DNA of 31,041 nt from a virus, in the IMG/VR virus record IMGVR_UViG_3300021356_000101, positions 1-31,041 of that record. The stretch is one strand, 5' to 3'. This document shows positions 3,189-26,003 of the stretch, one piece after another (positions within the stretch are counted from its first letter, which is position 1; every line of letters starts with the position of its first letter). The position numbers and the translations under genes are program-made. Under the pieces are notes generated by a model. The model was given only the letters and a program-made list of their open reading frames with translations, was not told the origin of the DNA and did no database searches.

Positions 3189-3475
3189 CACTCTTCACCA
3201 TAATCCACTTGGGTGTTCACCTTCAAGAAGTTCTTCAAAAACTTATCCGCCATCAAATCAAAGACTTCCTTCATTTCCTTGGGGCCAAGCTCTTGATGGT
3301 GCATCTCCAAGATGGCGATAAATAACGCCATCCGGATTACCTTCATGGGATTTTCCCCATCTTCAAGAAGTGAATAAGCCGTATCAAGTAATTGAAAAAC
3401 ACTATCATCATCTGAAAACAATTCTTTGTTGTACTTATCCACGGCACCATCTCCAAAGGGGTTTTGTGGTTCCAT
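3188..3475 (-). CDS. Small acidic helical hypothetical protein, 95 aa
   Basis: An acidic, helix-forming protein (LLDTAYSLLEDG..., MALFIAILEMHHQELGPKEMKEVFDLMADKF) with no catalytic motif. It overlaps the 3' end of the VapE-like gene by 41 bp and ends in a TGATG overlap with the nuclease gene, so it sits inside a translationally coupled block. The ribosome site is weak. A small accessory subunit of the neighbouring helicase or nuclease is conceivable but unsupported. Confidence 0.62.
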   Translation of the reverse strand: MEPQNPFGDGAVDKYNKELFSDDDSVFQLLDTAYSLLEDGENPMKVIRMALFIAILEMHHQELGPKEMKEVFDLMADKFLKNFLKVNTQVDYGEE

Positions 3476-4718
3476 CCGGTTGTGGAACCCTCACTTTGTT
3501 TTTACTATACCCTAATTCACCCAATATATCTTGGATAGTATTCTTCAAAGCAAAGGTTCTTTGGGCTACTGGAATTTCCATACTTCCAATGATGTCTTCA
3601 AGCTGAAAATGATGGGTGTTATTATGATGGAGATTGTCCAATATAGTCTTCACCAAAGGGGTGTAGGGATGAAGAGAAATAAACGCGTCCCGTCCCTCTT
3701 CTCGATTCTCTTCTTCCATATCTGTGAGATAGTGAATTTGGGTTTCATCCTTGGCATAGTGAAGAGCTTCAAGCCACAATTGGTCACGGATAGCCTTGAG
3801 GCCTTCCACATCAATCTTCCGTGATTTTGGCCACGGGAACATATTCCCCACATCATCCCAATCATAGCCACACATAACGGGCCACCATCTTCTTGAACCC
3901 GTGGAATCGTTCAAAATGTCCAATCTGTTGGTGGTGGCAATGAATGAAGTTTTCCGTGGGATGTCCACCCTCATCTTCCCATATGGAAGTCGAAGAGAAT
4001 CCACTTTTTGGTCAATGAAAGCCTTCTCCATCTTCTTATCCTTGGCACGTTTGGCCATTTCCTTCATCTCGTACAATAGCCGCCCATTCAGATGAAGAAC
4101 ATAATCTTTGTTGGTGATGTCCAAAGGTGTGTCCCCAAACCATTCCGGCTTCAATGCCAAGGTTTCTATGGATGTGGACTTTCTCAATCCTTGCCTACCA
4201 AAGAGCACCAACACGGAATCATGTTTGACGGGCTTTTGGATGGTGGAGTGGAGCGCGCGCCGTATTGCACCAATAAAGAACTTCTTCGAATATGCGCGGT
4301 TGATTATCGAGGGTTGAGCACCAAAATAATCTTCCAACAATGTTTCCAATCTTGGGACGCCATCCCACTTCTTCCCTTTGAAGTATTCCGCCAATGGATT
4401 AAACTTCTTGTCTTCCGCTACTTGGTTCACACATTCGAGCATCAAAGCCACGGAAGGCCGCACATCATAAAGAGATTCCATCCATGTAGCCATCCGGGAT
4501 AGCTGATTATCATCTATGGGCTTTCCCTTCCAATATACCAATCTGTCAAATTCATTCATCCCCAAGCTACTGAAATATGGGTGTTTATAGAGAAGTGTAA
4601 CCACATTAAAACGGCTATTTCGTACCGTCTCGATAATGTTTCCTGATACCACTTTCACGGTGGTTTTCAATCCCAAGTCATTGGGTTCTATATATTCATT
4701 CATTTGTACCTCATACAT
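3435..4718 (-). CDS. VapE/VirE-family ATPase, probable replicative helicase, 427 aa
   Basis: The central region carries a P-loop (GRQGLRKST, about 174-182) preceded by HDSVLVLF. Then come the strand LLYEMKEM with the Walker B acidic residue (about 214-221), the sensor-like FIATTN (about 259-264), and GSRRWWPV (about 274-281) with likely arginine fingers. This order is typical of virulence-associated E (VapE/VirE) P-loop ATPases of phages and islands, which act as superfamily 3-like helicases. The N-terminal 110 residues match the usual VirE pre-domain (KKWDGVPRLETLLEDYF). The start overlaps the stop of the primase gene by one base (TAATG), so the two are probably made together as a primase-helicase pair. 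Confidence 0.9.
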   Translation of the reverse strand: MYEVQMNEYIEPNDLGLKTTVKVVSGNIIETVRNSRFNVVTLLYKHPYFSSLGMNEFDRLVYWKGKPIDDNQLSRMATWMESLYDVRPSVALMLECVNQVAEDKKFNPLAEYFKGKKWDGVPRLETLLEDYFGAQPSIINRAYSKKFFIGAIRRALHSTIQKPVKHDSVLVLFGRQGLRKSTSIETLALKPEWFGDTPLDITNKDYVLHLNGRLLYEMKEMAKRAKDKKMEKAFIDQKVDSLRLPYGKMRVDIPRKTSFIATTNRLDILNDSTGSRRWWPVMCGYDWDDVGNMFPWPKSRKIDVEGLKAIRDQLWLEALHYAKDETQIHYLTDMEEENREEGRDAFISLHPYTPLVKTILDNLHHNNTHHFQLEDIIGSMEIPVAQRTFALKNTIQDILGELGYSKNKVRVPQPDGTTKPLWRWCRG

Positions 4719-5641
4719 TATAACACCCCCTTATCACGTCCAAGCTGGAAGAGGGAAAACCACTCCCCACATGAATTCATATGTCCACATTGGGCGGTGG
4801 TGCGATTTCCCAAGGGATTAATATAAAAATACGTGGCATCATTTCTACCACAAGATGGGCAGCTCCACCCAATCATTCTTGGATTGGCTCCCCCACTGTT
4901 CTTTCCTCCAATCTTGATTCCAAGCTGTTCCCGATAATGGGCATCCGTTGCAAGCTTCAAAGCCAAAGATTCTTTGGGATTTTGCATATACGCGGGAAGA
5001 GACTGGATTGCATTATAGCGCCTTTTCATCCGTTCTATCTTCTCTTTTTGTTCCATCTCCAATTGGGCTTTGTAGTTTTCACACTGTTGGAAATCTATGG
5101 AAAATGTGGAACCGTAATTTATATGAACCAAGTATTCATCAAAACCGTTCACATAAGTGACTGGTTTGGAACCCATCACCGGTACACCGGCCCCAACAAA
5201 ATAGAACCTTCTGGCATCCTTACACTTTTCATCCATCACTTTTCCGGTGTGCTCGAAGAAGAAGCGCTTACATTGAAGCCAAGCACCTTCCCAAAGATGA
5301 GATGGAACCGGCTTTTCGAAGGGAATCACAAGGCGCCACTTGTGCAAGGTGTCGGAATGGGAAGAACTTGTGTGGGCTATATATTGGTACTTCTTGAAAT
5401 CTTTGTGTGTATCCCATTTCAATCCCTCGTCAATGTCGAACACGGCACAAGAGATTTCCACCACGTTGTCATTTGTGAGCTTCCCACCTTTGAAGATTGC
5501 GGGACTCCAAGCTGGAATCTCAATCTTCTCTTTTGCGTCCCGTGGGGTGATGATAAATTGGGCTAGCTTCTCAAAGGAATAATCTAGAAATATTGGGTTG
5601 TTTGGTTTGTATATTTTTTGGAGTGCTGTTATCTTATACAT
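4718..5641 (-). CDS. Archaeo-eukaryotic-type primase (AEP-like) with C-terminal zinc motif, 307 aa
   Basis: Residues 60-150 show an AEP-like catalytic arrangement: FDIDEG (about 68-73) with two metal-binding aspartates, HTSSSHSD...KWRLVIP (about 90-107) giving His and Arg/Lys, and KDARRFYFVG (about 141-150). The C-terminal part has CPSC (about 261-264) and C-GHMNSC (about 285-291), a likely zinc-binding element as found in primases. AAAGGAAAG precedes the ATG. It is immediately upstream of and coupled to the VapE-like ATPase, the usual phage primase-helicase pair. The fold assignment comes from motif order and context; divergence leaves some doubt. Confidence 0.78.
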   Translation of the reverse strand: MYKITALQKIYKPNNPIFLDYSFEKLAQFIITPRDAKEKIEIPAWSPAIFKGGKLTNDNVVEISCAVFDIDEGLKWDTHKDFKKYQYIAHTSSSHSDTLHKWRLVIPFEKPVPSHLWEGAWLQCKRFFFEHTGKVMDEKCKDARRFYFVGAGVPVMGSKPVTYVNGFDEYLVHINYGSTFSIDFQQCENYKAQLEMEQKEKIERMKRRYNAIQSLPAYMQNPKESLALKLATDAHYREQLGIKIGGKNSGGANPRMIGWSCPSCGRNDATYFYINPLGNRTTAQCGHMNSCGEWFSLFQLGRDKGVL

Positions 5642-5709: not shown

Positions 5710-6294
5710 TTAGTATGTTATTGTACACGTGATTTTTGGGGATGGTCCCCAATACTTGTTGGCGTGGATGGAATACACCACGGAATCATCCACCAACATT
5801 CCACCATCTTGGGCGGCATCCATGAACGCCTTCACGAGATTGTCCACATCTGGCTTTTGGTGGTGCGGTCCCCACGGTTTGTTTTCGCTGTAGAAGATAA
5901 AGTCGAGCTTCATCTTTATGGGATGATTCAAACCGTGTTGTTTATCCTCCATCATCTTCACAAGTTCCTTCTTCCAATCCATATATTTCTTGGGCATGTA
6001 TGGGCGTCCGTATTTCGTGAATCGTGGACGTGGACACGCCATGGGATGAACTGGAAATTCGTGGAAGTGTATTCCCTTCTTTTGGAACTTGGTGGAGATT
6101 CGAAACATGGCTACACGAAAATAGTTTTTGTTCACATCATCCACTGGAAGAAGCCCAATAATCTTTTCCATCTGTTTATGGGTGGGGCTTTGTCGATTAT
6201 CCAACCACTTTTCCCACAATGGTTTGGTGGTGGCTTTTCGTATTTCTGGATATGTCTCGAGAAGATACTTCAAGTAGCTGTGTATGTTATACAT
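5710..6294 (-). CDS. RusA-like Holliday junction resolvase with N-terminal extension, 194 aa
   Basis: The C-terminal domain (about 78-194) contains PMACPRPRF and the signature KPDVDNLVKAFMDAAQDGGML-VDDSVV, with Asp at about 149, 151 and 170-171 as expected for RusA metal-binding residues. RusA cuts four-way junctions made during recombination or replication. The frame is open to 6387, but that part overlaps the HTH gene out of frame. The ATG at 6294 overlaps the HTH stop by 8 bp, the same overlap used by the previous gene pair. Even from 6294 the protein has about 75 extra helical residues before the RusA domain, unlike the roughly 120-residue stand-alone form. Confidence 0.88.
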   Translation of the reverse strand: MYNIHSYLKYLLETYPEIRKATTKPLWEKWLDNRQSPTHKQMEKIIGLLPVDDVNKNYFRVAMFRISTKFQKKGIHFHEFPVHPMACPRPRFTKYGRPYMPKKYMDWKKELVKMMEDKQHGLNHPIKMKLDFIFYSENKPWGPHHQKPDVDNLVKAFMDAAQDGGMLVDDSVVYSIHANKYWGPSPKITCTITY

Positions 6295-6496
6295 CGAGCT
6301 TCCCCATAGCTTCCAAGATTTCTTCCACGGATGTTTCAAAGAGAGAAGCCAATTTGATGATGTTGGGAAGGGTTGGCATCCGTTCACCCTTCATCCATCT
6401 GGAAACCAAGCTTTCATGAACCCCCATCTTCCCAGATAGTTCGCGTTGAGTCCAATCTCTTTTGTGTAGCTGTTTATTCAAGTACTTTTTAAACAT
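6287..6496 (-). CDS. XRE-type helix-turn-helix regulator, 69 aa
   Basis: TQRELSGKMGVHESLVSRWMKGERMPTLPNIIKLASLFETSVEEIL is a clear XRE/Cro-like HTH (recognition helix around HESLVSRWMKG). The protein consists of little more than this domain. An in-frame ATG at 6508 exists, but the ATG at 6496 has GGAG 6 bases upstream and overlaps the previous stop by 8 bp, so it is preferred. The gene lies in the leftward operon from the divergent promoter at 7154-7208. It is a good candidate for the protein that binds the 17-bp operators there, i.e. an autoregulating Cro-like repressor. That link is inference. Confidence 0.85.
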   Translation of the reverse strand: MFKKYLNKQLHKRDWTQRELSGKMGVHESLVSRWMKGERMPTLPNIIKLASLFETSVEEILEAMGKLDV

Positions 6497-21923: not shown

Positions 21924-22847
21924 TTATGCGTCTGTGAGAATCTGTACGGCGCGTGCCTGCTCTACCACGGAAGCGCCTGTGTACGCCGTCCCGACTATGC
22001 GCGTCAAGCTGTACGCCGAGTCCCGCTCAAGCTCCACGAGTACGGGGGTTCCAGCTGGGCGAATCTCACCGCTTGGAGCTGCAAGTGGAACCGGTGTTCC
22101 AAGTGCATAAGCAATAGCGCCCGCGCTGAACATAGCACCTTCACGGCTTCCCGCGTTGTCCACTACAAAAGAAGACTTGTGTACCTGTACACCCATGAAA
22201 TCACCAACGTACCCTTGCCCAAGAGATTTCATGAGGTCGTGGTGTGCTGGGTTAAAAGCGATGGCATTTGCGGTCTCATTGCGGATAGAGGACTGCAAAT
22301 CGGCAATTTGGCGTGGGTGGAGGACTGCGAAAAGCTGAGATGGGTTATCTGCGATTTCGAGCAAATACAGGGCGTCCATAAAATCGTCCACTGACATATC
22401 TACACCGGCGGTTCCGGCTTGTGCTGAAATACCTGTGAATGTTCCACAAACCATTTCCATGAAACGAGATTCGAAAGCGCCGGCCATAGATTCAGCTAGA
22501 CGGAACACATCAATGTCGTTTCCAAGTTTTGTCAATGCCGCCAAATCTGTGATGTCATATCGAAGGCCGATTCTACCCACAGCTATATCAGTGGTGTCCA
22601 TAGTGAGGTTTGAAGAAGTAATTTCCGCACCGTCACCCACTGTATTCATAGCTTCATAGCCGTCTAAACCAGCGTAACGAAGTGTTAGTGTGTCAGAGCC
22701 AACACCAGCGACATCACCAGCGAAAAGAAGCGCTCCAGAGTTACGAATAGAAGCCGCGTCATGAAGAAGTGCACGAACTTCATTTTCTATCATTGCATCG
22801 AGGCGAATTCCACCTGTATTTAATGCTGAGTAATCAATAGTAGCCAT
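21924..22847 (-). CDS. Major capsid protein (HK97-fold type), 307 aa
   Basis: Features of HK97-fold coats: an N-terminal helical arm (MATIDYSALNTGGIRLDAMIENEVRALL), the E-loop-like strands SDTLTLRYAGLDGYEAMNTVGDGAEIT with TDIAVGRIGLRYDITDLA (about 75-105), the spine-helix region AESMAGAFESRFMEMV (about 118-133), FAVLHPRQIADLQS and a conserved-style P-domain end (SAYSLTRIVGTAYTGASVVEQA). At 307 residues it has no fused scaffold; a separate scaffold-like gene is at 26835. AGGA lies 7 bases before the ATG. It has its own promoter and a leader hairpin. Codon usage looks different from its neighbours (more GC, fewer of the TTGG/CCATC words), as expected for a highly expressed gene. Confidence 0.87.
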   Translation of the reverse strand: MATIDYSALNTGGIRLDAMIENEVRALLHDAASIRNSGALLFAGDVAGVGSDTLTLRYAGLDGYEAMNTVGDGAEITSSNLTMDTTDIAVGRIGLRYDITDLAALTKLGNDIDVFRLAESMAGAFESRFMEMVCGTFTGISAQAGTAGVDMSVDDFMDALYLLEIADNPSQLFAVLHPRQIADLQSSIRNETANAIAFNPAHHDLMKSLGQGYVGDFMGVQVHKSSFVVDNAGSREGAMFSAGAIAYALGTPVPLAAPSGEIRPAGTPVLVELERDSAYSLTRIVGTAYTGASVVEQARAVQILTDA

Positions 22848-22892
22848 TTTATTATCCTAATATGGTTTTGGGTTATCCGTGGTTCCTACGTT

Positions 22893-22912
22893 GTTACGGG
22901 TACGACCCTAAC
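22893..22912 (-). other. 5' leader hairpin of the capsid mRNA
   Basis: GTTACGGGT and ACCCTAAC pair over 8 bp with one bulged C and an ACG/CGT loop. The hairpin begins about five bases after the predicted capsid transcription start, where such stems commonly protect long-lived phage mRNAs from decay. Confidence 0.5.
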
Positions 22913-22923
22913 CACACAAGTGT

Positions 22924-22951
22924 ATTATACAAGGTTTTTGTATCCTGTGTA
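22924..22951 (-). promoter_or_regulatory. Capsid-gene promoter overlapping a DnaA-box
   Basis: On the minus strand a perfect TATAAT (22929-22924) has a 4/6 match to the -35 (TACACA, 22951-22946) at a 16-bp spacing. The predicted start is near 22917, about 70 bp before the capsid ATG. The -35 lies inside the first DnaA-box-like site (22946-22954), so binding there would compete with polymerase. Confidence 0.6.
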
Positions 22952-23130
22952 TAACCTGTGTATAACTTTTTTTCATAGCCTGTGAATAACTTGTGTATAA
23001 CTTTTTGGAATCGGCTTTTGTGGCAGCTGGAAGCGTGGTTTGGCCTGTGGAAAACCTGTGGATAACTTCACATGATAATCTATGCGAAAGTTTTAAAAAT
23101 GAACTTATTTTGTTTTTCTTTCCTTATTCG
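22946..23130. promoter_or_regulatory. Cluster of six DnaA-box-like sites in three pairs, beside an AT-rich stretch (candidate origin)
   Basis: All six sites read in the plus direction: TGTGTATAA at 22946, TGTGTATAA at 22957, TGTGAATAA at 22981, TGTGTATAA at 22992, TGTGGAAAA at 23046 and TGTGGATAA at 23057. Each is a match to the DnaA box (TTWTNCACA, reverse), and the last is the perfect consensus. They form three pairs with an exact 11-bp period. An AT-rich stretch (about 23087-23130) follows, a plausible unwinding element. This is the layout of a DnaA-dependent origin. DnaA titration or DnaA control of the capsid promoter are alternatives. This is the only gene-free stretch of more than 300 bp (22848-23190). 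Confidence 0.72.
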
Positions 23131-23160
23131 CTTGACAAGGTGTCAAGTTTAAAGTAATAA
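23131..23160 (+). promoter_or_regulatory. Promoter with perfect early operator for the lone plus-strand gene
   Basis: CTTGACA-AGG-TGTCAAG (23131-23147) is a perfect 7-3-7 palindrome. Its left arm contains the -35 TTGACA (23132-23137), and TAATAA (23155-23160) follows after exactly 17 bp. Start near 23167, 24 bp before the ATG at 23191. It is the same operator-over-promoter design as at 1985-2014. Confidence 0.82.
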
Positions 23161-23190
23161 TAGAGTATCACCCAAACAAAAGAGAACATT

Positions 23191-23838
23191 ATGAAATCAG
23201 TTATCGACACACCAAACAACGTTCCCGCACCAATAACAATCCAAGAGCTTTTTTCCATCCGTAAAATGGTTAATGAGAAGTATCCCCATCTTTCACCATG
23301 TAAAAAATGGAACCGTGAAATGAAAGAAATCGCATCTGAAATAATTCGTGCGCAAGTGAGAAAATTAATTTCTGAAAAGAAATGGGAAAGAGCACGTTTG
23401 TTATCTTATTCGGCTAAGATGGCCACTGTAACATTTTCGGGCATGCGTACCCCCACTCGAATAATCACATCTGAACAGGCTGTTAGATTCCACAAATTCA
23501 TTCTAAACTCCCTTAAAAATGAGGATTTCATGGTATCTCGTTCTCGCCACTTTGGAACCATCGAGTGCATATCATGGCCACTTATGGAACGCGGGTTTCC
23601 TGTGAATGGGCAAGAAATGAAAGAAAAAGGGGTTATTGAGTTTTCAGAAGGTGAACAAACTTTTTATTGGCACCCTAAAAAATCAATCTGGGTTACTAAT
23701 ACCACTTACAATTTCCCATGTGAACTTAGAGGATGTAAGGAATATAAAACCCAAGATATAAATACATACATCCCTTTGAAATACAGAAATGATGAAACAA
23801 AAAGAAAAGAATCAATAACAGGTTATTATCTCAAATAA
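23191..23838 (+). CDS. Hypothetical early-type protein under the shared operator, 215 aa
   Basis: A plus-strand gene within the minus-strand late genes. AAGAGAAC lies before the ATG. It is AT-richer than neighbours, basic, mainly helical at the N-terminus (ITIQELFSIRKMVNEKYPHLSPCKKWNREMKEIASEII...) and mixed alpha/beta at the C-terminus (SEGEQTFYWHPKKSIWVTNTTYNFPCELRGC). No catalytic motif or HTH is recognised. It has a shared operator with the early transcripts, so it is probably an early gene rather than a late one, and it sits next to the DnaA-box cluster. A replication-initiator or a moron-like added gene are both possible. It ends 13 bp from the convergent gene, with no terminator visible. 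Confidence 0.75.
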   Translation: MKSVIDTPNNVPAPITIQELFSIRKMVNEKYPHLSPCKKWNREMKEIASEIIRAQVRKLISEKKWERARLLSYSAKMATVTFSGMRTPTRIITSEQAVRFHKFILNSLKNEDFMVSRSRHFGTIECISWPLMERGFPVNGQEMKEKGVIEFSEGEQTFYWHPKKSIWVTNTTYNFPCELRGCKEYKTQDINTYIPLKYRNDETKRKESITGYYLK

Positions 23839-23851
23839 TCTTAGATGGCTT

Positions 23852-24238
23852 CTATATTCCACGCCGTTGGAATAAATCTATACACTTGGCTATATCTTCC
23901 GCTTCTGAATGTTGGGAACCACAAAAGGAAATTATCGCCTTTTTGTTTCTGAGATTCGTAATGTTGTCACACGTTGTCCCACTCACTTCACCCGTGGCGC
24001 TATTGGTTTGAGTCATACACATAAGTTCTCTACAAAGCCCATCTCCCTTCTTCTCGATAAACTTGGGTTCACAAATGGGAAGAACCACATCCAATTTCCC
24101 CAGCTCTTTGGCCACGGGGTCCGATGGAACCACGATGGGGGCCGGTGCTTCTTGGGTTCCCTTCATCAATCCAAAAGTGAGGGAACCACCCACAATCATT
24201 CCACCAATAATCAATCCAATCATTTCTAACATTTTCAT
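23852..24238 (-). CDS. Membrane-anchored cysteine-rich protein, 128 aa
   Basis: A hydrophobic N-terminal segment (MIGLIIGGMIVGGSLTFGLM, about 6-25) is followed by a Pro/Ala linker and a soluble domain with six cysteines (about residues 56, 69, 74, 90, 107, 118). That suggests export to the periplasm or cell surface and disulphides. It lies between a terminator and the convergent gene. A spanin-like or virion-entry role is conceivable; neither is shown. AAGGATATG precedes the start (the ATG at 24238). Confidence 0.66.
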   Translation of the reverse strand: MKMLEMIGLIIGGMIVGGSLTFGLMKGTQEAPAPIVVPSDPVAKELGKLDVVLPICEPKFIEKKGDGLCRELMCMTQTNSATGEVSGTTCDNITNLRNKKAIISFCGSQHSEAEDIAKCIDLFQRRGI

Positions 24239-24299: not shown

Positions 24300-26003
24300 T
24301 TAAACAGAAATCGCCACGGTTACAGTTACACCAACGGCGCTTTCTACTGTGAGGGCAGAAGTGGAAGAATAAACAACGTCCAATTCAATCTTGTTTCCAC
24401 TTGCATCCATAGCGGACACGTGAACAAGCTGCTTCCCAAGATTGTGGGTGATGCTTGTAGCAGTATTCGCGGAAAGAGTAATGGATGTTTCATATCGCAA
24501 ATCTTGAAGGCGAAGTGAGAATTCACCATTCGAAGAATTGTAATTGATAAGCTCATCCGCTTGGCTGGATACGGTTACAGCTCCACGTGCTCTTGCTTGT
24601 GTGAAATACTGGTTTGTACTTCCTTCGCTCACTTGGTCGGTGTTGGCAGAAAGTGAGAACTCACCATATCCATCATAGCTTAGACCGGTTCCCGCTGAAA
24701 ATTCACCAACAACATCAGAAAGAAGAACTTTAAAAGCTCCGGTGGTTCCGTTGTATTGAAGAAGGTTGGAATCTTGTCCACTTACAGTTTCAGCAGATAC
24801 CGCACCGCGCGCGCGCGCTTGTGTGAAGTACTGGTTGGATGAACCTTCTGAAACATCATCACTATCACCATTGAAAGCAATAACGCCGTTTGTGATTCCA
24901 ATAGCGGTTCCCGCGCTGAAAGCTCCACGAACTGAAGATGTGGAAACAAGAAGGTCACCAGTGGAAGAAGCATAAGAAAGAAGGTTTCCAGCTTGTGAAT
25001 CCGCTTGGATGGCTCCACGCGCTCGAGCTTGTGTGAAGTATTGGTTTGTACTTCCTTCACTCACATCATCAGAATCACCATTGAAAGAGATGGTGTTTCC
25101 AGAAATTCCAATAGCAGTTCCACCAGCCAAATCGATAGCAATCGCACCGGTCAAAGCTGTGTAGGAAATACCAGTTCCACCGGAAAGAGCACCGCGCGCG
25201 CGTGAATCTGTGAAGTATAGGTTGGATGTTCCTTCTGTTACTTGGTCACTTGTAGCGTTCAAAGAGAATTCACCGTATCCATCATATGAAAGTCCGGTTC
25301 CCGCTGAAAATTCACCCGTGATGTCAGAAAGAAGAACCTTCATTTCACCGGTGGAAGAATTGTATTGCATCAAGTTGGCATCTGGACTTGCCACGGTTTC
25401 CAAAGAGATAGCGCTTCTTGAACGGCTATCAGTATAGTAAAGGTTGGAGCTTCCTTCGCTGATTTCGTCACTTGTTGCATCTACTGCAAAGGTGATTTGA
25501 CCGTTGGAAACACTTGATGAAAGTCCGGTTCCAGCTGCGATGTTTGCGCTGATTGTAGCGTTGGAAGCATTGACGCTAATCCCATCACCAGCTTGAAGAA
25601 CTGCCCCAACTTCCGCCGCACTCAATGGGCTTTCAATCTGGGTGTAGTTTCCAGCGCTTGAACCATTCGCACCGCTTACAATGTATGTTTCTGTTCCATC
25701 GCTCGGTGCTGTAAGAATCAGAACATCACCTTCAGCAAGTGAAGCCGCCGTGGAAGATTCGTTGGCGATGAAGTTAGCCAAAGATGTTTGGGTGTTGTCC
25801 ACGTGAACGTCTGTGATTGCAAGATTCGAGATTGAAAGTTCACCGTTGGAAACGGAAAGCATTGAAGAAGAACCGGAAGCAATAGCGGAAATGTAAGATA
25901 AATCTGCTACGTCTTGTTTTCTTACAAGATGTCCATTCTCGGTTGGTGCGTTGTCACATTTTACGCCGCCTTTAAAGACGACTTCTGGGTTATAAAATTG
26001 CAT
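24300..26003 (-). CDS. Repeat-built fibre protein, 567 aa
   Basis: Five copies of a unit like SDxVSEGSxNxYFTxARARGAxS occur at about 178-200, 252-274, 311-333, 381-403 and 455-477. A larger block (LLQYNxxTG..KVLLSD..GEFSAGTGLSYDGYGEFS) occurs twice, about 211-248 and 413-450. This 'EGS.NLYFT.AR.R.A' repeat is well known in trimeric phage fibres. The C-terminus (about 506-567) is a separate beta domain, TSITHNLGKQLVHVSAMDASGNKI. It is encoded in the head module between the scaffold-side genes and the capsid gene, so it may be a head fibre as well as a tail fibre. DNA-level repeats make it prone to recombination. Confidence 0.85.
   Translation of the reverse strand: MQFYNPEVVFKGGVKCDNAPTENGHLVRKQDVADLSYISAIASGSSSMLSVSNGELSISNLAITDVHVDNTQTSLANFIANESSTAASLAEGDVLILTAPSDGTETYIVSGANGSSAGNYTQIESPLSAAEVGAVLQAGDGISVNASNATISANIAAGTGLSSSVSNGQITFAVDATSDEISEGSSNLYYTDSRSRSAISLETVASPDANLMQYNSSTGEMKVLLSDITGEFSAGTGLSYDGYGEFSLNATSDQVTEGTSNLYFTDSRARGALSGGTGISYTALTGAIAIDLAGGTAIGISGNTISFNGDSDDVSEGSTNQYFTQARARGAIQADSQAGNLLSYASSTGDLLVSTSSVRGAFSAGTAIGITNGVIAFNGDSDDVSEGSSNQYFTQARARGAVSAETVSGQDSNLLQYNGTTGAFKVLLSDVVGEFSAGTGLSYDGYGEFSLSANTDQVSEGSTNQYFTQARARGAVTVSSQADELINYNSSNGEFSLRLQDLRYETSITLSANTATSITHNLGKQLVHVSAMDASGNKIELDVVYSSTSALTVESAVGVTVTVAISV

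Follow-up and report, generated by a model that had tools for sequence, protein, structure and literature searches.

Directly upstream of its major capsid protein (MCP) gene, an uncultured phage carries an ordered array of boxes of the kind bound by DnaA, and this array is, as judged from sequence comparison, a real, selected element. We consider it a binding platform for host DnaA that most likely serves as the phage's replication origin, or as part of one, a reading to which we give slightly less than an even chance. The window, by which is meant the whole 31,041-nt stretch analysed, is a 31-kb IMG/VR phage record; besides the structural genes of a tailed phage it encodes a VapE-like helicase, a primase and a resolvase of the RusA type. 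All genomes compared are uncultured contigs.

The window contains 11 matches to the motif TTWTNCACA where 3.9 would be expected, and none of 100 shuffles reaches this number. Six of the 11 are minus-strand sites, at 22946, 22957, 22981, 22992, 23046 and 23057. These six form three pairs spanning 22946–23065, each with a start-to-start spacing of exactly 11 bp, and one box (23057–23065) is the perfect consensus TTATCCACA; the recomputed positions agree with the original prediction, made from the letters of this DNA, of six same-strand boxes in three 11-bp pairs with one perfect member. The paired pattern TTWTNCACA-N2-TTWTNCACA is present three times, compared with a mean of 0.0 in 300 windows simulated with matching dinucleotide content, and a control pattern read backwards is absent from the window and from 18 related records. 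The array lies between the MCP gene and a plus-strand gene at 23191–23838, and in the window, as in several relatives, it is the sole noncoding repeat cluster detected:

21924–22847, minus strand: MCP gene (PHROG 544, E 1.8e-9), downstream of the array
22946–22965, minus strand: box pair 1 (TTATACACA-GG-TTATACACA), closest to the capsid gene, its 3′ box overlapping the −35 of the capsid promoter; clade-A relatives have it in the same position
22981–23000, minus strand: box pair 2 (TTATACACA-AG-TTATTCACA), from the motif match and the alignment of relatives
23046–23065, minus strand: box pair 3 (TTATCCACA-GG-TTTTCCACA), from the motif match and the alignment of relatives

Within coding DNA, repeats of 39–76 nt recur at ~180–220 bp in window positions 24576–25264, inside a fibre-like gene (24300–26003).

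A search with the MCP returned 18 close loci, 15 of which have boxes within 300 bp before the MCP gene. Boxes spaced by 11 bp stand upstream of the MCP gene in clade A (MCP identity 68–98%) and in clades B (L069, L083, L084, L136) and C (L043, L077, L079, L113, L117, L132, L138), with MCP identities of about 35–42%. Most close relatives have four pairs, or eight boxes, at nearly constant distances; the fourth, ~34 bp beyond pair 3, has been lost in the window at an insertion. The unit of clades B and C is an imperfect palindrome of ~34–45 bp, in which two forward boxes are followed by inverted copies, mostly TATGAATAA and in some cases TGTGNAWAA. The full unit occurs in 33 stretches of viral contigs, of which all that were examined belong to this phage family, and it has no match in bacterial genome contigs. 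An RNA hairpin was considered as the cause of the palindromic unit and rejected, because the inner inverted copy remains TATGAATAA even where the facing box differs; a terminator-like hairpin, identified by eye, stands just before the array in clades B and C. In L007 and L008 (MCP 93%) the array is gone except for one mutated pair, and the MCP tree requires four gains or losses of the capsid-side array.

The variation tolerated within the boxes bears on what binds them. Across 165 paired slots from 28 contigs, each of which had to fit TTWTNCACA, the boxes read TTATACACA in 85 cases, TTATTCACA in 47, TTTTCCACA in 21, TTATCCACA in 10 and TTTTTCACA in two, and a looser count, with up to two mismatches permitted, differed little from this. 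Within this set C at position 5 accompanies T at position 3 in 21 of 23 boxes, against 10 of 142 with A at position 3 (Fisher P 5e-17, a value inflated by relatedness). Measurements on E. coli DnaA have found good binding among TTTT-type boxes only where C occupies position 5 (PMC5835720); freedom at positions 3 and 5, with T3 mainly beside C5, is thus the published preference of the E. coli protein. The low-affinity arrays of E. coli oriC have 2-bp gaps and a single orientation (PMC4451416), and the window's boxes likewise share one direction and exact 2-bp gaps. The resemblance to oriC (R5M–I2 and C3–C1) extends to TTWTNCACA-type boxes and a mixture of strong and weak sites, whereas the phage array differs in having no recognised DNA-unwinding element (DUE) at a fixed place and no dnaA gene, in being built of separate pairs rather than a continuous row, and in standing before a capsid gene.

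No gene with DnaA domain IV (PF08299) was found in the 10 phage records searched, and across the clades no phage gene consistently accompanies the array, the best being RusA (9 of 10 with the array, 4 of 18 without). Given these absences and the DnaA-like variation of the boxes, host DnaA is most likely the protein that would bind. The RusA-like resolvase itself is encoded at 5710–6387 in the window, and its clade A version has an extra N-terminal part, HTH-like by eye. A protein other than DnaA might bind the sites, for instance a small Cro/C1-like regulator of the phage itself, whose genome encodes at least one clear HTH_3 protein along with several that are HTH-like; such a binder would suit the constant inner TATGAATAAC of those array units that are imperfect palindromes; however, no such regulator gene tracks the array across clades, the degeneracy and coupling of positions 3 and 5 match DnaA, and the same 9-mer recurs at other spacings in the family and in many other phages, all of which makes a non-DnaA binder improbable.

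The array is mobile within the family, which argues for a position-independent role. G021, G022 and G024 have 8–10 perfect TTATCCACA boxes between the scaffold gene and the next gene, spaced 12 and 20–21 bp; seven TTATCCACA boxes stand just 5′ of the primase-helicase genes in G032 and G034, and five and three, respectively, lie directly 3′ of the helicase in G029 and G031. The reading that relatives without 11-bp pairs have no boxes was rejected on account of those spaced 12 and 20–21 bp. In the last four genomes the array adjoins the primase-helicase genes, which is not the case in the window or in clades A–C, the helicase genes being ~18 kb from the array in the window's clade:

3435–5641, minus strand: VapE-like helicase (3435–4718) and primase (4718–5641), the phage's own replication genes

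The boxes of these seven relatives and of clades A–C are mostly oriented along the late and replication genes. A same-strand array that reappears at different intergenic sites, including beside replication genes, is best accounted for by an origin and, after that, by a DnaA sink.

The original prediction had held such clusters to be rare in this kind of phage, a claim that does not survive comparison: clusters of at least three boxes occur in 16 of 28 family genomes, and the pattern of two tandem pairs in at least 119 viral-contig stretches (43 flank-similarity clusters), with none for the backwards control. No cluster of at least three boxes was found in G010, G023, G025–G028 and G033, although their structural genes are the same, as are their replication genes so far as these were read. 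Iteron-like noncoding repeats were observed near the 3′ side of the helicase in G025 (1996–2052), G026 (25718–25978), G028 (3267–3309) and G029 (24977–25039), their sequences being TTTATCCCA, TGTCCCTACCT, ACGTGTGAA and TTTCACACCAG; these are candidate origins of those phages.

Were the array to act as an origin, its tandem same-direction boxes, 2 bp apart and on one face of the helix, would allow DnaA to bind cooperatively, and the bound DnaA would distort or open the DNA or recruit replication proteins, after which the phage primase and VapE-like helicase (or host DnaB) would load. DnaA occupancy, melting and the start of a fork at the array are what we infer; the sites, their conservation, their DnaA-like variation and their relocation were observed directly.

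The T/A-rich stretch that had been likened to an origin element (~23072–23130) is real, and ranks among the lowest 0.3% of 50-bp windows in duplex stability, but it is unconserved: it is part of an insertion peculiar to this phage, and no conserved DUE was found. At this position relatives have the coding end of a 128-aa gene and the fourth box pair instead; the insertion carries the T/A-rich stretch in and takes the place of that pair:

23191–23838, plus strand: 215-aa gene of the window-specific insertion (~23066–23851), absent at this place from relatives
23852–24238, minus strand: 128-aa gene, whose end directly abuts the array (fourth pair) in relatives of clade A

The promoter of the insertion gene, TTGACA-18-AATAAT (TTGACA at 23132, AATAAT at 23161), sits within the palindrome TTGACAAGGTGTCAA; the 215-aa gene is divergent, with no assigned family, and has a homologue in the early region of the relative G029. 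A duplex-stability scan revealed unstable spots near many of the arrays, yet at no shared position, and no one site flanking every array is AT-rich or of low stability.

A GC-skew switch at ~23 kb had been suggested as a check. Skew at fourfold sites has no sign change at the array and follows transcription, hence it is a weak test of an origin. The array is also dispensable or replaceable, having been lost in L007 and L008, with no box cluster in several other relatives. The absence of a skew switch and of a conserved unstable segment, together with the cluster-less relatives, keeps the origin reading near the balance point.

The capsid promoter offers a second possible role for the boxes:

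22924–22951, minus strand: capsid-gene promoter TACACA-16-TATAAT, its −35 (22946–22951) inside the box at 22946–22954 and its −10 at 22924–22929

Throughout clade A the TATAAT is invariant, and the last box ends 16–18 bp before it and overlaps a weak −35; in L017–L020 and L109 the −10 itself lies inside an inverted box. The array-less L007 and L008 have a better −35 (TTTACA) at the same distance, 18 bp before TATAAT, and may represent a natural loss of the array offset by the better −35. These features, and the fact that DnaA is known both as an activator and as a repressor (PMC8203912), favour a DnaA-controlled capsid promoter, in which DnaA bound at the pairs would activate this strong internal promoter, or repress it until titrated by phage copies, and so tie late expression to DnaA state or copy number. 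Fixed box-to-promoter geometry is, however, confined to clade A: the promoter lies 40–190 bp past the array in clade B, a DUF5824 gene and ~700 bp intervene in clade C, and the arrays of G021, G022, G024, G029, G031, G032 and G034 are away from the capsid gene. The distances in clades B and C indicate that a fixed promoter role is not the shared function; a simple activator site for the capsid promoter was rejected on these clades and on the relocated arrays, and control of this promoter by DnaA is, on balance, unlikely to be what the array is for. In the window's own clade the capsid promoter has extended into the end of the array, such that DnaA occupancy would there also affect capsid transcription.

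Two further observations concern the region before the capsid gene. In array-less relatives L204–L249 (e.g. L204, L217, L231), operator-like TGACA-n-TGTCA palindromes lie between a divergent gene and the MCP gene. The capsid transcript also has a leader, which is found in array-less relatives too:

22878–22919, minus strand: structured capsid leader RNA, ~42 nt, with an outer stem, a hairpin GGGU-CGU-ACCC and a pseudoknot CGU/ACG

The hairpin has 4 bp and the loop pseudoknot 3 bp, with the variants CGU/ACG, CAC/GUG and CGC/GCG (leaders in L170–L249), and the outer stem varies in sequence while its pairing is kept. Among 37 distinct leaders, 96.9% of hairpin and pseudoknot cells are paired, with 41 double changes, as against 28–44% when the columns are slid by 1–3. 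The leader has no match in Rfam and, given its strong covariation, may be a new cis-regulatory RNA acting on phage capsid genes.

A DnaA sink, in which multiplying phage genomes would bind free DnaA and halt new rounds of host chromosome replication, accords with the many boxes per genome, their position-independence and their loss and regain among relatives. Titration of DnaA by boxes present in many copies, with a rise in initiation mass, is known (PMC5835720), and datA and other titration loci likewise consist of clustered boxes able to soak up DnaA; datA, though, has an IHF site and irregular boxes, in contrast to the regular pairs of the phage array. The capsid-side boxes mostly have A or T at position 5, rather than the C of the tightest boxes, and conserved synteny and fixed pair spacing would be needless for a sink. 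These points lessen the case for titration, to which we still assign a minor share of the likelihood. The original prediction had offered an origin, a sink and plasmid-like maintenance: the finding of DnaA-like boxes under selection upholds the origin (or sink) as best, and plasmid-like maintenance is unsupported, with no partition or integrase module recognised among the genes searched, which were a part of the phage's genes.

Searches also matched arrays of a similar kind in Microviridae and in named phages of the T7-like (Berlinvirus) and T5-like groups. Tandem DnaA-box-like arrays, many of them in noncoding DNA close to terminase genes or terminal repeats, were seen in H34, H36 and H50 (Berlinvirus), H60 (Sugarlandvirus), and H37 and H40 (small ssDNA phages). 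The window has no nucleotide match in named phages, its MCP and TerL matches there being weak, and a TerL alignment scan of bacterial genome contigs, made in search of a host, gave no relative. According to a published description, repeats and DnaA boxes abound in the T5 injection-stop region (PMC13250531), and as noncoding phage DNA of this composition that region resembles the array; with T5-like phages among the array-search matches, a site at which repeats and DnaA boxes hold DNA entry was considered. The T5 region is terminal and T5-specific, whereas the array is internal, mobile and at varying mid-genome places in the family, and no T5-like terminal repeat was found, making an injection stop very improbable indeed.

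Among origins of other kinds, the iteron origins with DnaA boxes (P1 oriR, pSC101, RK2) also have several boxes, and those of G029 and G032 stand beside other repeats and a helicase or primase gene; unlike these plasmids, the window has the boxes as its only repeats and a helicase 18 kb away, and no gene for a Rep initiator adjoins its array. Phage lambda (ori/pR/pO) similarly has host DnaA boxes bearing on replication and transcription, but relies on phage O iterons with few DnaA boxes, as opposed to the ordered array of 6–8 in the window's family. The array kind is already known; what is new is its relocation within one family and its fusion with a capsid promoter, for which no earlier report was found in the literature searched, most subscription journals lying outside it.

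It is conceivable, if some way from probable, that a mobile host-DnaA array serves as the replication start in this family of small phages, and that in a single lineage this array has become joined to the capsid promoter, such that the state of DnaA would time both replication and capsid production. If true, many uncultured phages would start replication with the host initiator despite having their own primase and helicase, and a phage origin would be recognisable from its sequence, with its use tied to the growth state of the host. The family constitutes a natural experiment, in which the same structural genes are accompanied by an array at several places or by none, opening the role of the DnaA boxes to comparison and swapping.
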